DNA of 46,443 nucleotides from Alphaproteobacteria bacterium (lineage in GTDB: Bacteria; Pseudomonadota; Alphaproteobacteria; Rs-D84), in contig JAFXFG010000004.1 of the NCBI GenBank assembly GCA_017520675.1, forward strand, positions 1 to 46,443, in the 5' to 3' direction. A program made the translations under genes and the position numbers. Below, one piece after another: positions 1,810 to 46,439 of this stretch; positions within the stretch are counted from its first letter, which is position 1; the number at the start of each line of letters is the position of its first letter. The notes under the pieces were generated by a model. The model was not told the DNA's origin, did not search any database, and was given only the letters and a program-made list of their open reading frames with translations.

Positions 1810-2046
1810 AAAAAATTAACCGCCATAGGAATAGCGGTCGGGGAGTTGCTAAATCAGTATATCATTGACTCCGTCCGCCTTTGGTGCATGCACCTGTTGT
1901 ATAGCGGACAGCTCCCCGACATTTTGTCAGGGTTCTTAAAATACAGTGCAAATACAGGAAACAGCCGTCGGATTACGACACATTGTTATATTTGCACCGG
2001 ATATACTGGGCCTAGCACAGCCCCGAACCAAATTCCCATTTGGTTC
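1810..2046 (-). ncRNA. Structured leader RNA, copy A (unrecognised family)
   Basis: Read on the minus strand from 2046. P1 is a 9-bp hairpin closed by a GGGA tetraloop (2025-2046). GGGGCTGT and AGGCC follow. P2 is an 11-bp helix (1989-1999 with 1944-1954) enclosing the conserved core GTGTCGTAATCC (1970-1981). P3 is GTCGGGGAG with CTCCCCGAC (1912-1920 and 1837-1845). It encloses P4 (CTGTCCGC/GCGGACGG), which carries conserved ATACAACAG and a small GGTGC/GCACC hairpin. The end is a hairpin ACCGC...GCGGT (1819-1838) and a T-rich run to 1810. Every helix has a counterpart in the copy at 45920-46170 despite sequence changes. It does not match T-box, cobalamin, tmRNA, RNase P or 6S landmarks that I know. 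The downstream ATG is at 1786. Confidence 0.75.
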
Positions 2047-2052
2047 AACACT

Positions 2053-2082
2053 ACTATAACACAGTTTTTGCTTTTATTTCAA
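2053..2082 (-). promoter_or_regulatory. Promoter of structured RNA copy A
   Basis: On the minus strand TTGAAA (2082-2077), an 18-base spacer, then TATAGT (2058-2053). The P1 hairpin begins 6 bases after the -10, so the RNA would start at or next to its first helix, as in copy B. Confidence 0.6.
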
Positions 2083-2859: not shown

Positions 2860-5262
2860 TTACCCCTGTATATTTTGTGCCACAACAAAGTCTAATTCAT
2901 TGCCGACTTGAATATTGTTTGCGCGCGCTGCGGATTTTATCAGCCCATGTAAAACATCTGGTACATCATTTGTGATGGTCAGCATTTCCAGTTTTGCGCC
3001 ATTTCCAACCTTGCGTTCTGTGCGCAATCCACGAATATTTTTCAGCACTTCCAACGCGACATCCATTGTTGAAACATCTGTATCATATTCAGGCACAACT
3101 GTTGGGTATGCAGTCAAGTGCAGTGTTTCGCCACCTTCGAATGGTTTATATATTTTCTGCCACAATTCTTCGGTCAAGAATGGAATAAATGGTGCATACA
3201 GACCGATTATTGCGCGCAGAACGGTATACAACGTCCATTGTGCAGACAATTTTGATTCTGCGCTATACTTTTCAGGTGCCCAGAATCTGTCTTTGATAAA
3301 TTCCAAATATTGGTCGCAGAAAATATCCCAAAAGAAAGTATCAATTGCTGCGCGTGAATTGTAGTTATCATATCTGTCCAGATATTTTCGTACTTCTGCG
3401 ACTGTTTTGTTAAGTTCTGATAACACCCATCTATCTTCGATAAATCGTTCTGATACAGGTATTTGCCTTGCGCAATCAGGTTCAAAATCAGACAGATTCA
3501 TCAGGGTATACTTTGACGCGTTCCATAATTTAGTCAGCAGTTTAGAACCGCGTTTCACCTCGTCATCAGAATAACGAATATCTGTTCCGATTGGTGCGGT
3601 TGCAATCCAGTACCGCAACGCATCTGCCCCAAACTTTTCAACTGTATCCAGTGGGTCTGTGCCGTTGCCCTTGGTCTTTGACATTTTTTGACCTTTGGAA
3701 TCACGCACCAGTCCATGGAAATTAACGGTATGAAATGGTACTTTGCCCATAACATATATTCCCATCATAATCATACGTGCAACCCAAAAGAATATGATAT
3801 CTGCACCTGTATACAACAGGTCTGTTGGGTAATATTTTTGCAACTCTAACGTATCTGTTGGCCATCCAAGTGTTGAAAACGGCCACAGTCCTGATGAAAA
3901 CCAAGTGTCCAGCACATCAGGGTCGCGTGTCAAAGATTTTCCACCTGCCATTTTAATGGCGGCTTCTTCTGATTCTGCGACATATACCTTGCCATCTTCA
4001 TCATACCATGCTGGTATATGGTGGCCCCACCATAATTGACGTGATATGGTCCATGGTCTAATATTTTTCATCCATGCCATGAACAGGTTATAACGATGTT
4101 CTGGCATAAATTGAACTTCACCATTTTCGACAGCTTTGATTGCAGGAATTGCCAATTTTTCCGCATCAACGAACCACTGGTCGGTCAGGTATGGTTCAAC
4201 CGGTACCTGTGCGCGTTCAGAATAAGGTGTTGGAATCATCTTATCTTCGATTTTTACCAGTAATCCAGCACCTTCGATATCTGCAACGATTGCATCGCGT
4301 GCTTTATATCTGTCCATTCCGCGATATTTTTCAGGCACAACCGGATTATCATTTAACTTTGCATCAGGTGTTAAAATGCAAACAGGTGTCAGGTTGTGTC
4401 TTTGTCCAACCTCCCAGTCGTCAAAGTCATGTGCAGGTGTAATTTTCACTGCCCCTGTACCTTTTTCTGGGTCTGCGTGTTCGTCTGCGATAATTGGAAT
4501 CTCGATATTTGTCAGTGGAATAATTGCCTTGCGCCCAATCAAGTGTTTCAACTTTTCGTTTTCTGGGTGAACTGCAATTGCTTGGTCGCCGAACAAGGTT
4601 TCTGGTCGTGTTGTTGCGATTTCAATAACACCGCCATCAACCAATTGATAATTGAAATAATAAAATTTACCTTTTTCTTCGCGTGTTTCGATTTCCAAAT
4701 CAGAAATCGAAGTCATCTGTTTTGGGCACCAATTCACCAATCTTTTTTCACGATAAATCAGTCCTTCGTTATACATTTTCACAAACAACTTAGTTACTGC
4801 ATCAGACAGTCCTTGGTCCATTGTAAATCTTTCACGCTTCCACACTGGGCTGGCCCCCAAGATATGCAATTGGTTCATAATTTGGCCACCCTTTTCAGAC
4901 TTCCATTTCCATGCTGCATCTAACTTTTCCTGCAAAGACAAACTATGTGGATTAATTCCGCGCTTTGACAGGTCGCGTTCCACCAACAGTTGTGTTGCAA
5001 TTGATGCATGGTCTGTCCCAGGTTGCCACAACACATCAAAGCCTGACATACGTTTATACCTGCAAACGATATCTGTTAGGACATTATCCAGTGCGTGCCC
5101 CATATGTAAATTACCGGTTACATTTGGTGGTGGCATCATGATGCAAAATGCAGGCTTATCAGATTTTACATCATTATCCCAGAAATTATTATTATCCCAA
5201 AATTCTTGTATTTTTGTTTCGATTTCGCGTGGATTGATATTTTTACCTAGTTCGATATTCAT
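2860..5262 (-). CDS. valS: Valyl-tRNA synthetase
   Basis: 800 residues; a class I aminoacyl-tRNA synthetase that attaches valine to tRNA-Val in the cytoplasm. The HIGH motif appears as HMGH (residues 53-56) after PPPNVTGNL, and KMSKT near residue 530 is the KMSKS loop. The editing domain follows the first catalytic half (GDQAIAVHPE, TPAHDFDD). It is shorter than the roughly 950-residue enterobacterial enzyme because the C-terminal coiled coil is missing or very short. The ATG giving MNIELGKN is chosen over an upstream in-frame start because the extra 53 residues are Cys/Phe-rich and fit no known ValS, and AAGG lies just upstream. It heads an operon with the thioesterase. Confidence 0.95.
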   Translation of the reverse strand: MNIELGKNINPREIETKIQEFWDNNNFWDNDVKSDKPAFCIMMPPPNVTGNLHMGHALDNVLTDIVCRYKRMSGFDVLWQPGTDHASIATQLLVERDLSKRGINPHSLSLQEKLDAAWKWKSEKGGQIMNQLHILGASPVWKRERFTMDQGLSDAVTKLFVKMYNEGLIYREKRLVNWCPKQMTSISDLEIETREEKGKFYYFNYQLVDGGVIEIATTRPETLFGDQAIAVHPENEKLKHLIGRKAIIPLTNIEIPIIADEHADPEKGTGAVKITPAHDFDDWEVGQRHNLTPVCILTPDAKLNDNPVVPEKYRGMDRYKARDAIVADIEGAGLLVKIEDKMIPTPYSERAQVPVEPYLTDQWFVDAEKLAIPAIKAVENGEVQFMPEHRYNLFMAWMKNIRPWTISRQLWWGHHIPAWYDEDGKVYVAESEEAAIKMAGGKSLTRDPDVLDTWFSSGLWPFSTLGWPTDTLELQKYYPTDLLYTGADIIFFWVARMIMMGIYVMGKVPFHTVNFHGLVRDSKGQKMSKTKGNGTDPLDTVEKFGADALRYWIATAPIGTDIRYSDDEVKRGSKLLTKLWNASKYTLMNLSDFEPDCARQIPVSERFIEDRWVLSELNKTVAEVRKYLDRYDNYNSRAAIDTFFWDIFCDQYLEFIKDRFWAPEKYSAESKLSAQWTLYTVLRAIIGLYAPFIPFLTEELWQKIYKPFEGGETLHLTAYPTVVPEYDTDVSTMDVALEVLKNIRGLRTERKVGNGAKLEMLTITNDVPDVLHGLIKSAARANNIQVGNELDFVVAQNIQG

Positions 5263-5420
5263 ATTGCATGCCTTGTTGTTTGTATAATCTGTTGCAAATC
5301 GTACCAGAATAAAATCAAAATTCAAGGAAAACCCCAATAGTAAAAAATACATTACACCGATACATTTGACACAAAGTCCCAAATATAACACCCCACAAGA
5401 AGAAACCAAAGAAAAAAACA

Positions 5421-5540
5421 ATGCTGACCAGCATTTATATCATGGCGATAACTACAGTTGCTATGGCAGAAACGTTTCCAACCGACGGTCTTATGCAGGT
5501 TGGTACAACGTATAACGATGCCGCTGTCATAATTTTATGA
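5421..5540 (+). pseudogene. Possible remnant of a secreted-protein gene (39 codons)
   Basis: An open frame of 39 codons starts with a signal-peptide-like segment (MLTSIYIMAITTVAMA followed by ETFPTDG) and stops at TGA 5538-5540. The ribosome site is poor (A-rich only). Signal peptide followed by a short mature part resembles the N-termini of the window's exported proteins, so it may be the decayed front of such a gene or a real small peptide. It could also be chance. Confidence 0.3.
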
Positions 5541-45883: not shown

Positions 45884-45912
45884 TTGCAATAAATCCACAA
45901 TACTGATATAAT
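45884..45912 (+). promoter_or_regulatory. Promoter of structured RNA copy B
   Basis: TTGCAA (45884-45889), exactly 17 bases, perfect TATAAT (45907-45912) with upstream TGA (extended -10). The first RNA helix starts 7 bases later at 45920. Confidence 0.7.
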
Positions 45913-45919
45913 TCAAAAT

Positions 45920-46170
45920 GAACCAGATGGGAATCTGGTTCGGGGCTGTCGTAGGCCTAGTTTATCCGATGCAAATATGTACACGCATGTATTATGTGTC
46001 GTAATCCAAGTGGTGAAAAATCTCCGTATTTGCATCGCTATCTTGATTATGCCCTGACTGAATAAGTCGGGGGGCTGTCCGCCATACAACAGGGGTAACC
46101 CGAAAGCGGACAGAATCATTGATAAACTGATTTACGAACTCCCCGACCGCTGATTTTCATCGCGGTTTTT
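45920..46170 (+). ncRNA. Structured leader RNA, copy B (unrecognised family)
   Basis: P1 45920-45928 with 45933-45941 around GGGA. GGGGCTGT and AGGCC follow. P2 is 11 bp (45967-45977 with 46027-46037) around the conserved core GTGTCGTAATCC (45996-46007) plus a variable insert. P3 is GTCGGGGGG (46066-46074) with CTCCCCGAC (46139-46147). Inside it, P4 is CTGTCCGC (46075-46082) with GCGGACAG (46106-46113), enclosing ATACAACAG and a GGG/CCC hairpin. The conserved strand TGATAAACTGATTTA lies between P4 and P3. The final hairpin is ACCGC (46146-46150) with GCGGT (46162-46166) and TTTTTT, sharing two bases with P3. Same plan as copy A on the minus strand. The gene downstream starts 45 bases after the T-run. 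Confidence 0.8.
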
Positions 46171-46214
46171 TAACAAAAAAATTAATAAATAACAGGTTAC
46201 AGGGGGGGCTAAAA

Positions 46215-46439
46215 ATGCATAAAAAACTTTTAACAATTTTCTTAATCTGCGCGCCAATATCGGCAATGGCGAACATTCCATCAACCGAATATGTCCAGCA
46301 ACAAATCGCATCCCAAATCGCAACCGCCGTATCATCTAAGGTTGACACATCGGCATCCGCGAATCAGACAATGGCGGGAACTTATACTGTAACTGGTACG
46401 CTTAACGCACCAACACCAACCCTGCCAACGGCGGAATAA
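46215..46439 (+). CDS. Small secreted protein behind structured RNA copy B
   Basis: 74 residues. Residues 1-19 are a signal peptide (MHKKLLTIFLICAPISAMA). The mature part begins NIPSTEYVQQQIASQ, is Ala/Thr/Ser-rich and ends in TGTLNAPTPTLPTAE then TAA. The GTL/TLP wording recalls the GTLP repeats of the protein at 269-1786. ATG follows AGGGGGGG at 5 bases. It may be a complete short surface protein or the intact front part of a longer one shortened by an early stop; the window ends 4 bases after the stop. Confidence 0.65.
   Translation: MHKKLLTIFLICAPISAMANIPSTEYVQQQIASQIATAVSSKVDTSASANQTMAGTYTVTGTLNAPTPTLPTAE

Follow-up and report, generated by a model that had tools for sequence, protein, structure and literature searches.

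The window analysed here (the whole stretch of 46 443 nucleotides of contig JAFXFG010000004.1) carries two copies of a structured RNA, A and B, on opposite strands and each upstream from a gene. With moderate confidence, we interpret both as antisense leaders of the phage C4/CI type which would give locus-specific control past a terminator, each copy probably switching its own gene. C4 and CI RNAs are textbook phage regulators, and phages P1 and P4 use such antisense RNAs for immunity; to our knowledge, their wider use by host cells is mostly unexplored. Here the layout of a phage regulator is tied to secreted-protein genes across a bacterial genus. The original prediction had correctly recognized two copies of one RNA, but the genome (draft assembly, 1.11 Mb in 46 contigs) holds about 40 leaders of two sequence types, a count based on one covariance model and on pattern scans over 948 kb. 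Almost every one of them has a gene immediately behind it, which makes the unit a leader in addition to a possible standalone small RNA. The features of the two copies are listed below (window coordinates, with the strand in brackets).

2053–2082 (−): promoter of copy A, with −35 TTGAAA at 2077–2082, an 18-nt spacer and −10 TATAGT at 2053–2058
2025–2046 (−): 5′-terminal hairpin P1 of copy A (GAACCAAATGGGAATTTGGTTC), 6 nt after the −10 box
1810–2046 (−): whole putative C4-type leader RNA, copy A, from P1 to the U-run (fold, covariation, model match of 120.7 bits)
2011–2017 (−): word a1 of copy A (TGCTAGG), pairing with a′ TTTAGCA
2000–2008 (−): word b1 of copy A (CAGTATATC), pairing with b′ GATATACTG
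1926–1932 (−): strand X of copy A (CCCTGAC), partner of Y in the minimum-energy fold
1914–1920 (−): strand Y of copy A (GTCGGGG), able to pair with X or Z
1829–1920 (−): domain of copy A resembling RF02221 (sRNA-Xcc1), with b′ and a′ (30.0 bits at E 0.0015, short of the gathering score, 53)
1855–1863 (−): word b′ of copy A, complement of b1
1847–1853 (−): word a′ of copy A, complement of a1
1837–1845 (−): strand Z of copy A (CTCCCCGAC), alternative partner of Y
1810–1839 (−): intrinsic terminator of copy A, hairpin GACCGC..GCGGTT followed by T6
269–1786 (−): gene led by copy A, encoding 505 aa that begin like a signal peptide, with its ATG 27 nt beyond the model match
45884–45912 (+): promoter of copy B, with −35 TTGCAA at 45884–45889, a 17-nt spacer and −10 TATAAT at 45907–45912
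45920–45941 (+): hairpin P1 of copy B, 7 nt after the −10 TATAAT
45920–46171 (+): whole putative C4-type leader RNA, copy B (fold z −6.8, model match of 127.4 bits), including an RF02221-like match of 40.1 bits (E 6e-6)
45949–45955, 45958–45966, 46121–46129 and 46131–46137 (+): words a1, b1, b′ and a′ of copy B
46052–46058, 46066–46072 and 46139–46147 (+): strands X, Y and Z of copy B
46146–46171 (+): terminator and U-run of copy B
46215–46439 (+): gene led by copy B, a 74-aa secreted protein from a family of about 16 paralogues in the genome

Both −10 boxes are of the sigma70 type and hairpin P1 is 22 nt long in both copies. The spacing noted originally is correct: TATAGT ends 6 nt and TATAAT 7 nt before P1. 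The promoter position is also fixed relative to P1 in homologous loci, as established from 81 copies with a recognizable P1 in the window's genome and its genus. The spacing is not a chance effect: counted from the start of P1, similarity to TATAAT averages 4.2 out of 6 at −13 (about 2.2 elsewhere), with a peak confined to −13/−12; the gap between the −10 box and P1 is 6 or 7 nt in 71 of the 81 copies, and a second, TTGACA-like peak is located at −37 to −35.

The suggestion that promoter and RNA travel together is supported, whole promoter–RNA–gene units being gained or lost as blocks. Relative to the close relative G014, the complete promoter–RNA–gene–terminator unit is absent from the window's genome at two syntenic sites. 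At L217 the unit is placed exactly behind the terminator of the upstream gene, and at L204 there are 1177 bp in place of 28 bp. The units behave like phage ‘morons’ or cassettes, and we infer that promoter, RNA, gene and terminator are inherited together as an accessory cassette. On the basis of the fixed promoter–P1 position and this block inheritance, a defined RNA 5′ end at the first helix likely matters.

The leader RNA is about 240 nt long, and copies A and B are about 75 per cent identical. The predicted fold of copy A has −100 kcal/mol (z −8.2 compared with shuffles; −6.8 for copy B). From 5′ to 3′, the leader comprises hairpin P1, a G-run (W), a small hairpin with a1 as its loop, b1, the long arm and X; these are followed by Y, arm 1, arm 2 (whose loop holds b′), a′, Z and the terminator hairpin with its U-run, followed by the Shine–Dalgarno (SD) sequence and the ATG. 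The core of arm 1 is conserved (AUACAACAGG..GAAAG), the long arm comes in two unrelated kinds, and the a1/b1 words lie about 150 nt from the domain with their complements. Compensatory changes were found in 20 of 68 pairs in a 12-copy alignment. The 3′ domain has 95.8 per cent standard pairs and 13 compensated pairs, a result equalled in none of 500 shuffles.

The alignment supports both Y:X and Y:Z pairings. The minimum-energy folds contain Y:X in 76 and Z:W in 77 of 78 copies, and forcing Y:Z has a median cost of 14.8 kcal/mol. Of 81 copies, 77 end in a U-run. Adopting the alternative Y:Z fold weakens the terminator in no more than about half of the listed copies, and fold and read-through are thus not linked in the same way throughout. 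One leader (L025, at C23:3955 of G000) is without the usual terminator; its AUCCUUUU..AAAAGGAU hairpin spans the stretch in front of what may be a nuclease gene with a GTG start, and translation may be the step on which this copy acts.

Words a1 and a′, and b1 and b′, are complementary within each locus and differ between loci. In type I leaders, the words score 17.0 with their own partners and 12.8 with those of other loci (n=86); in type II the values are 17.4 and 11.8, the own partner being the best in 8 of 8 copies. This type II test took in 8 of 17 copies, as the pattern for Z left out CTCCAACC variants; the initial a1/b1 search window left out five copies with short 5′ parts, which were partly recovered later. 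Such bipartite complementarity of a′/b′ to upstream a1/b1 is a defining trait of C4 RNAs. The words recur in varying combinations; b ATGACTT, for instance, occurs together with three distinct a words. Among sites shared with G014, the syntenic pair L203 and C27:19731 has identical words, the orthologues L198 and C41:27837 have the same word a and a different b word with a matching b′, and at the syntenic pair L189 and C22:16211 both the words and the gene differ.

Because these variable words have co-changing complements, the variation points to RNA–RNA recognition, not to a ligand pocket. The earlier idea of an aptamer is thus not supported, the most variable parts of the RNA being precisely the words a1 and b1. 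A ligand-binding riboswitch or aptamer class common to a surface-gene regulon would explain a structured leader with a terminator and the conserved arm 1 core before about 40 similar genes. It seems very improbable, since the a1/a′ and b1/b′ words that decide the fold vary freely with compensation, the long arm is of two unrelated types, and phage antisense RNAs have the same layout.

A second target, a2/b2, was not found at the ribosome-binding site (RBS) of either type (12.6 versus 12.2 for type I; 11.1 versus 11.3 for type II); in RF02221 loci, which served as a positive control, the same test gave 15.7 versus 11.6. The RBS-masking route of phage P1 C4 is therefore unavailable in cis, and masking through a second target copy was ruled out. 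Bipartite targets in trans are not in excess either, with 36 sites compared with 32 for shuffled words in 948 of 1109 kb. Sequestration of the SD sequence by the leader was also rejected: predicted accessibility is 0.49 versus 0.51, and this absence of an effect leads us to prefer regulation at the level of termination rather than translation. At locus L014 (C24:47486), the RBS region of the gene contains ACCTAAAA, an 8-nt match to its own b word, possibly a surviving b2 or a chance occurrence.

At gathering thresholds, Rfam detected no RNA family in the window except a tRNA. With open thresholds, RF02221 matches the 3′ domain (best match 48.3 bits, E 7e-8, against a gathering score of 53), and there are 19 such matches in the window's genome, all below 53 bits. 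The C4 family RF01695 gave no match on copy L004 at E up to 1; the same library matches phage P1 c4 to RF01695 at 68.8 bits, and phage P1 also matches RF03163.

sRNA-Xcc1 (RF02221) is an integron-cassette sRNA of Xanthomonas, so far described as trans-acting and linked to virulence. For comparison, 398 Pseudomonadota genomes were searched and 30 of its loci were read. They carry a1/b1 upstream (17.0 versus 12.8) and a2/b2 around the SD sequence of the next gene (15.7 versus 11.6), and many, as read by eye, precede genes whose products resemble BRO, KilA-N, Rha and antirepressor proteins. This arrangement is the annotated order of phage P1 (a1, b1, C4 RNA, a2, b2, icd, ant), which is why we read a C4/CI-type module here. 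Carrying both a1b1 and a2b2, often before phage-type regulators, sRNA-Xcc1 (L097–L126) therefore looks like a C4-type module, although it is placed outside Rfam's C4 clan, and the data suggest that it has both target copies in cis. In the literature searched, a single paper names both C4 antisense RNA and sRNA-Xcc1, and there the two appear as distinct entries. In Xanthomonas, RF02221 precedes symE (PMC12444791). The published position of an sRNA-Xcc1 match in E. coli falls in a hok gene in the record examined.

The window RNAs resemble C4 of phages P1 and P7 (RF01695; c4-a1b1, RF03163) in having their own sigma70 promoter followed by a1, b1, the a′/b′ domain and a presumably co-transcribed gene. 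Unlike C4, which leads icd/ant, they end in an intrinsic terminator, have no RF01695 match and lead secreted-protein genes, in about 40 chromosomal copies. With RF02221 they share the Y–arm–arm–Z domain of about 90 nt and the core AUACAA..CCCG.AAG, but their matches remain below 53 bits. As judged from sequence, they differ from both phage C4 and the RF02221 loci elsewhere in two ways: there is no a2/b2 at the RBS, and the downstream genes are not antirepressors, whereas those RF02221 loci have a2/b2 at this site and are followed by phage-type regulators.

Three other systems are comparable. In phage P4, CI RNA (seqA/CI/seqC) is reported to cause premature termination through pairing with upstream and downstream sequences (PMC4825925). 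It is likewise an antisense RNA from a leader that pairs with an upstream complement, but P4 has the additional downstream seqC. With IsrK (RF01394) of the Salmonella prophage Gifsy-1, a single promoter yields both a short RNA that ends at a terminator and an mRNA made by read-through, the short RNA acting on the long one by opening an RBS (PMC4825925). Promoter, terminator and downstream RBS are in the right order for this in our loci; IsrK differs in being prophage-borne, in being tied to an antirepressor-like gene and in its RBS opening, predicted SD accessibility being unaffected by the leader here. Many C4-like sRNAs in one bacterial chromosome are also found in Group 1 of A. baumannii, which are not known to us as secreted-protein leaders with locus-specific a1b1 and terminators (PMC5320573).

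At nearly all loci the ATG is located 10–50 nt past the terminator, with an SD sequence between them. The downstream ORFs appear to be secreted, lipoprotein or glycosyltransferase-like. By a simple, rough hydrophobicity rule (signal-peptide-like or lipoprotein-like start), 20 of 23 ORFs in the window's genome, one truncated RNA copy being left out of the 23, and 56 of 67 in its relatives look secreted or membrane-anchored. No phage antirepressor operon was found downstream at these loci. The ORFs of L003, L004, L005, L009, L011, L013 and L018 belong to a paralogous secreted family with a common N-terminus (LVSRGFLDEALENYATTTALDLKANQSD) and a variable remainder, for which one full protein gave no Pfam match. 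In the window, neither led protein has a PHROG match, and no Pfam family was found for the 505-aa protein. The gene preceding copy A encodes an acyl-ACP thioesterase and the one preceding copy B is ruvC, so neither copy lies in an evident prophage. Elsewhere in the window, an 853-aa ORF (2860–5421, minus strand) matches phrog_12710, a phage family of unknown function, over nearly its full length (E 9e-245).

This gene context bears on the possibility that the RNA is a standalone, stable C4-like ncRNA acting in trans for superinfection immunity against phage or plasmid transcripts, the downstream gene being a leak-through passenger. C4 plays that role in P1 and P7, and it was proposed for the many C4-like sRNAs of A. 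baumannii (PMC5320573); diverse words would suit shifting phage targets, and the terminator looks strong. We nevertheless consider this unlikely, as an ORF starting 10–50 nt from the terminator at nearly every locus, in genes that are alike, would be needless for a free sRNA, and a strict search with a single pattern found no exact copy of the core in viral contigs.

R1, a covariance model built for the 3′ domain, gave 27 matches at E≤1 in the window's genome, 23 of them strong. Type II, with the same layout in another sequence, turned up in front of the remaining paralogues of the copy B gene and in a scan for its core; it has 17 copies, three of which R1 also matched weakly. At E≤0.001, R1 has matches in 70 of 99 related genomes, including 55 of 59 from the window's genus; it also matches every one of 11 genomes sampled from a sister family, as well as 3 of the 22 taken from outside the order. 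Among the matches listed, there are up to 36 copies per genome of about 1 Mb. The named relatives are metagenome-assembled goat-gut Alphaproteobacteria (RGIG3039 and RGIG2127). Integron attC sites were rejected on account of layout, the copies being scattered singly with their own promoters and without an integron array.

Two copies, L012 (C8:1596–1839; C8:1713) and L016 (C26:21377), keep the promoter and P1, have lost the 3′ part and are probably relics. That all copies are purely structural or degenerate C4 relics, duplicated with the secreted-protein family and now without regulation, would agree with such shortened copies and with the missing a2/b2. We think this improbable: compensatory changes, promoter spacing and terminators have been kept in almost all copies across the genus, which argues for ongoing selection on the RNA.

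Under the antisense-leader interpretation, transcription from the sigma70 promoter would, given the observed spacing, begin with the first nucleotide of P1. The primary transcript would fold with a1:a′ and b1:b′ paired, Y bound to X, and Z to the G-run beside P1. Most transcripts would end at the terminator and yield the short RNA, and those reading through would be the mRNA, a short-plus-long arrangement modelled on Salmonella IsrK. The short or processed RNA may then act through its a/b words on the nascent or read-through transcript of its own locus, word pairing tuning how much transcription passes the terminator, as in P4 CI. The word pairs being specific to their loci, each locus would be regulated separately.

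A broader and more tentative proposal, to which we give somewhat less than even chances, is that a small-genome gut symbiont has made from a phage immunity RNA some 40 mutually insulated switches, each with two recombining and diversifying words, which jointly set the secreted and surface proteins displayed. If each RNA indeed controls only its own gene by a two-word code, the leaders would form a naturally occurring collection of orthogonal RNA switches and might offer uncultured gut bacteria a way to vary their surface.

Tandem copies of sRNA-Xcc1 reportedly occur in Xylella. A similar organization is seen on contig C5 (L130:14190–14787), where three type II units stand in tandem before an ORF starting MKIGQELEFIRKNS; they are spaced by about 245 nt, and each has a promoter-like sequence and a terminator of its own.
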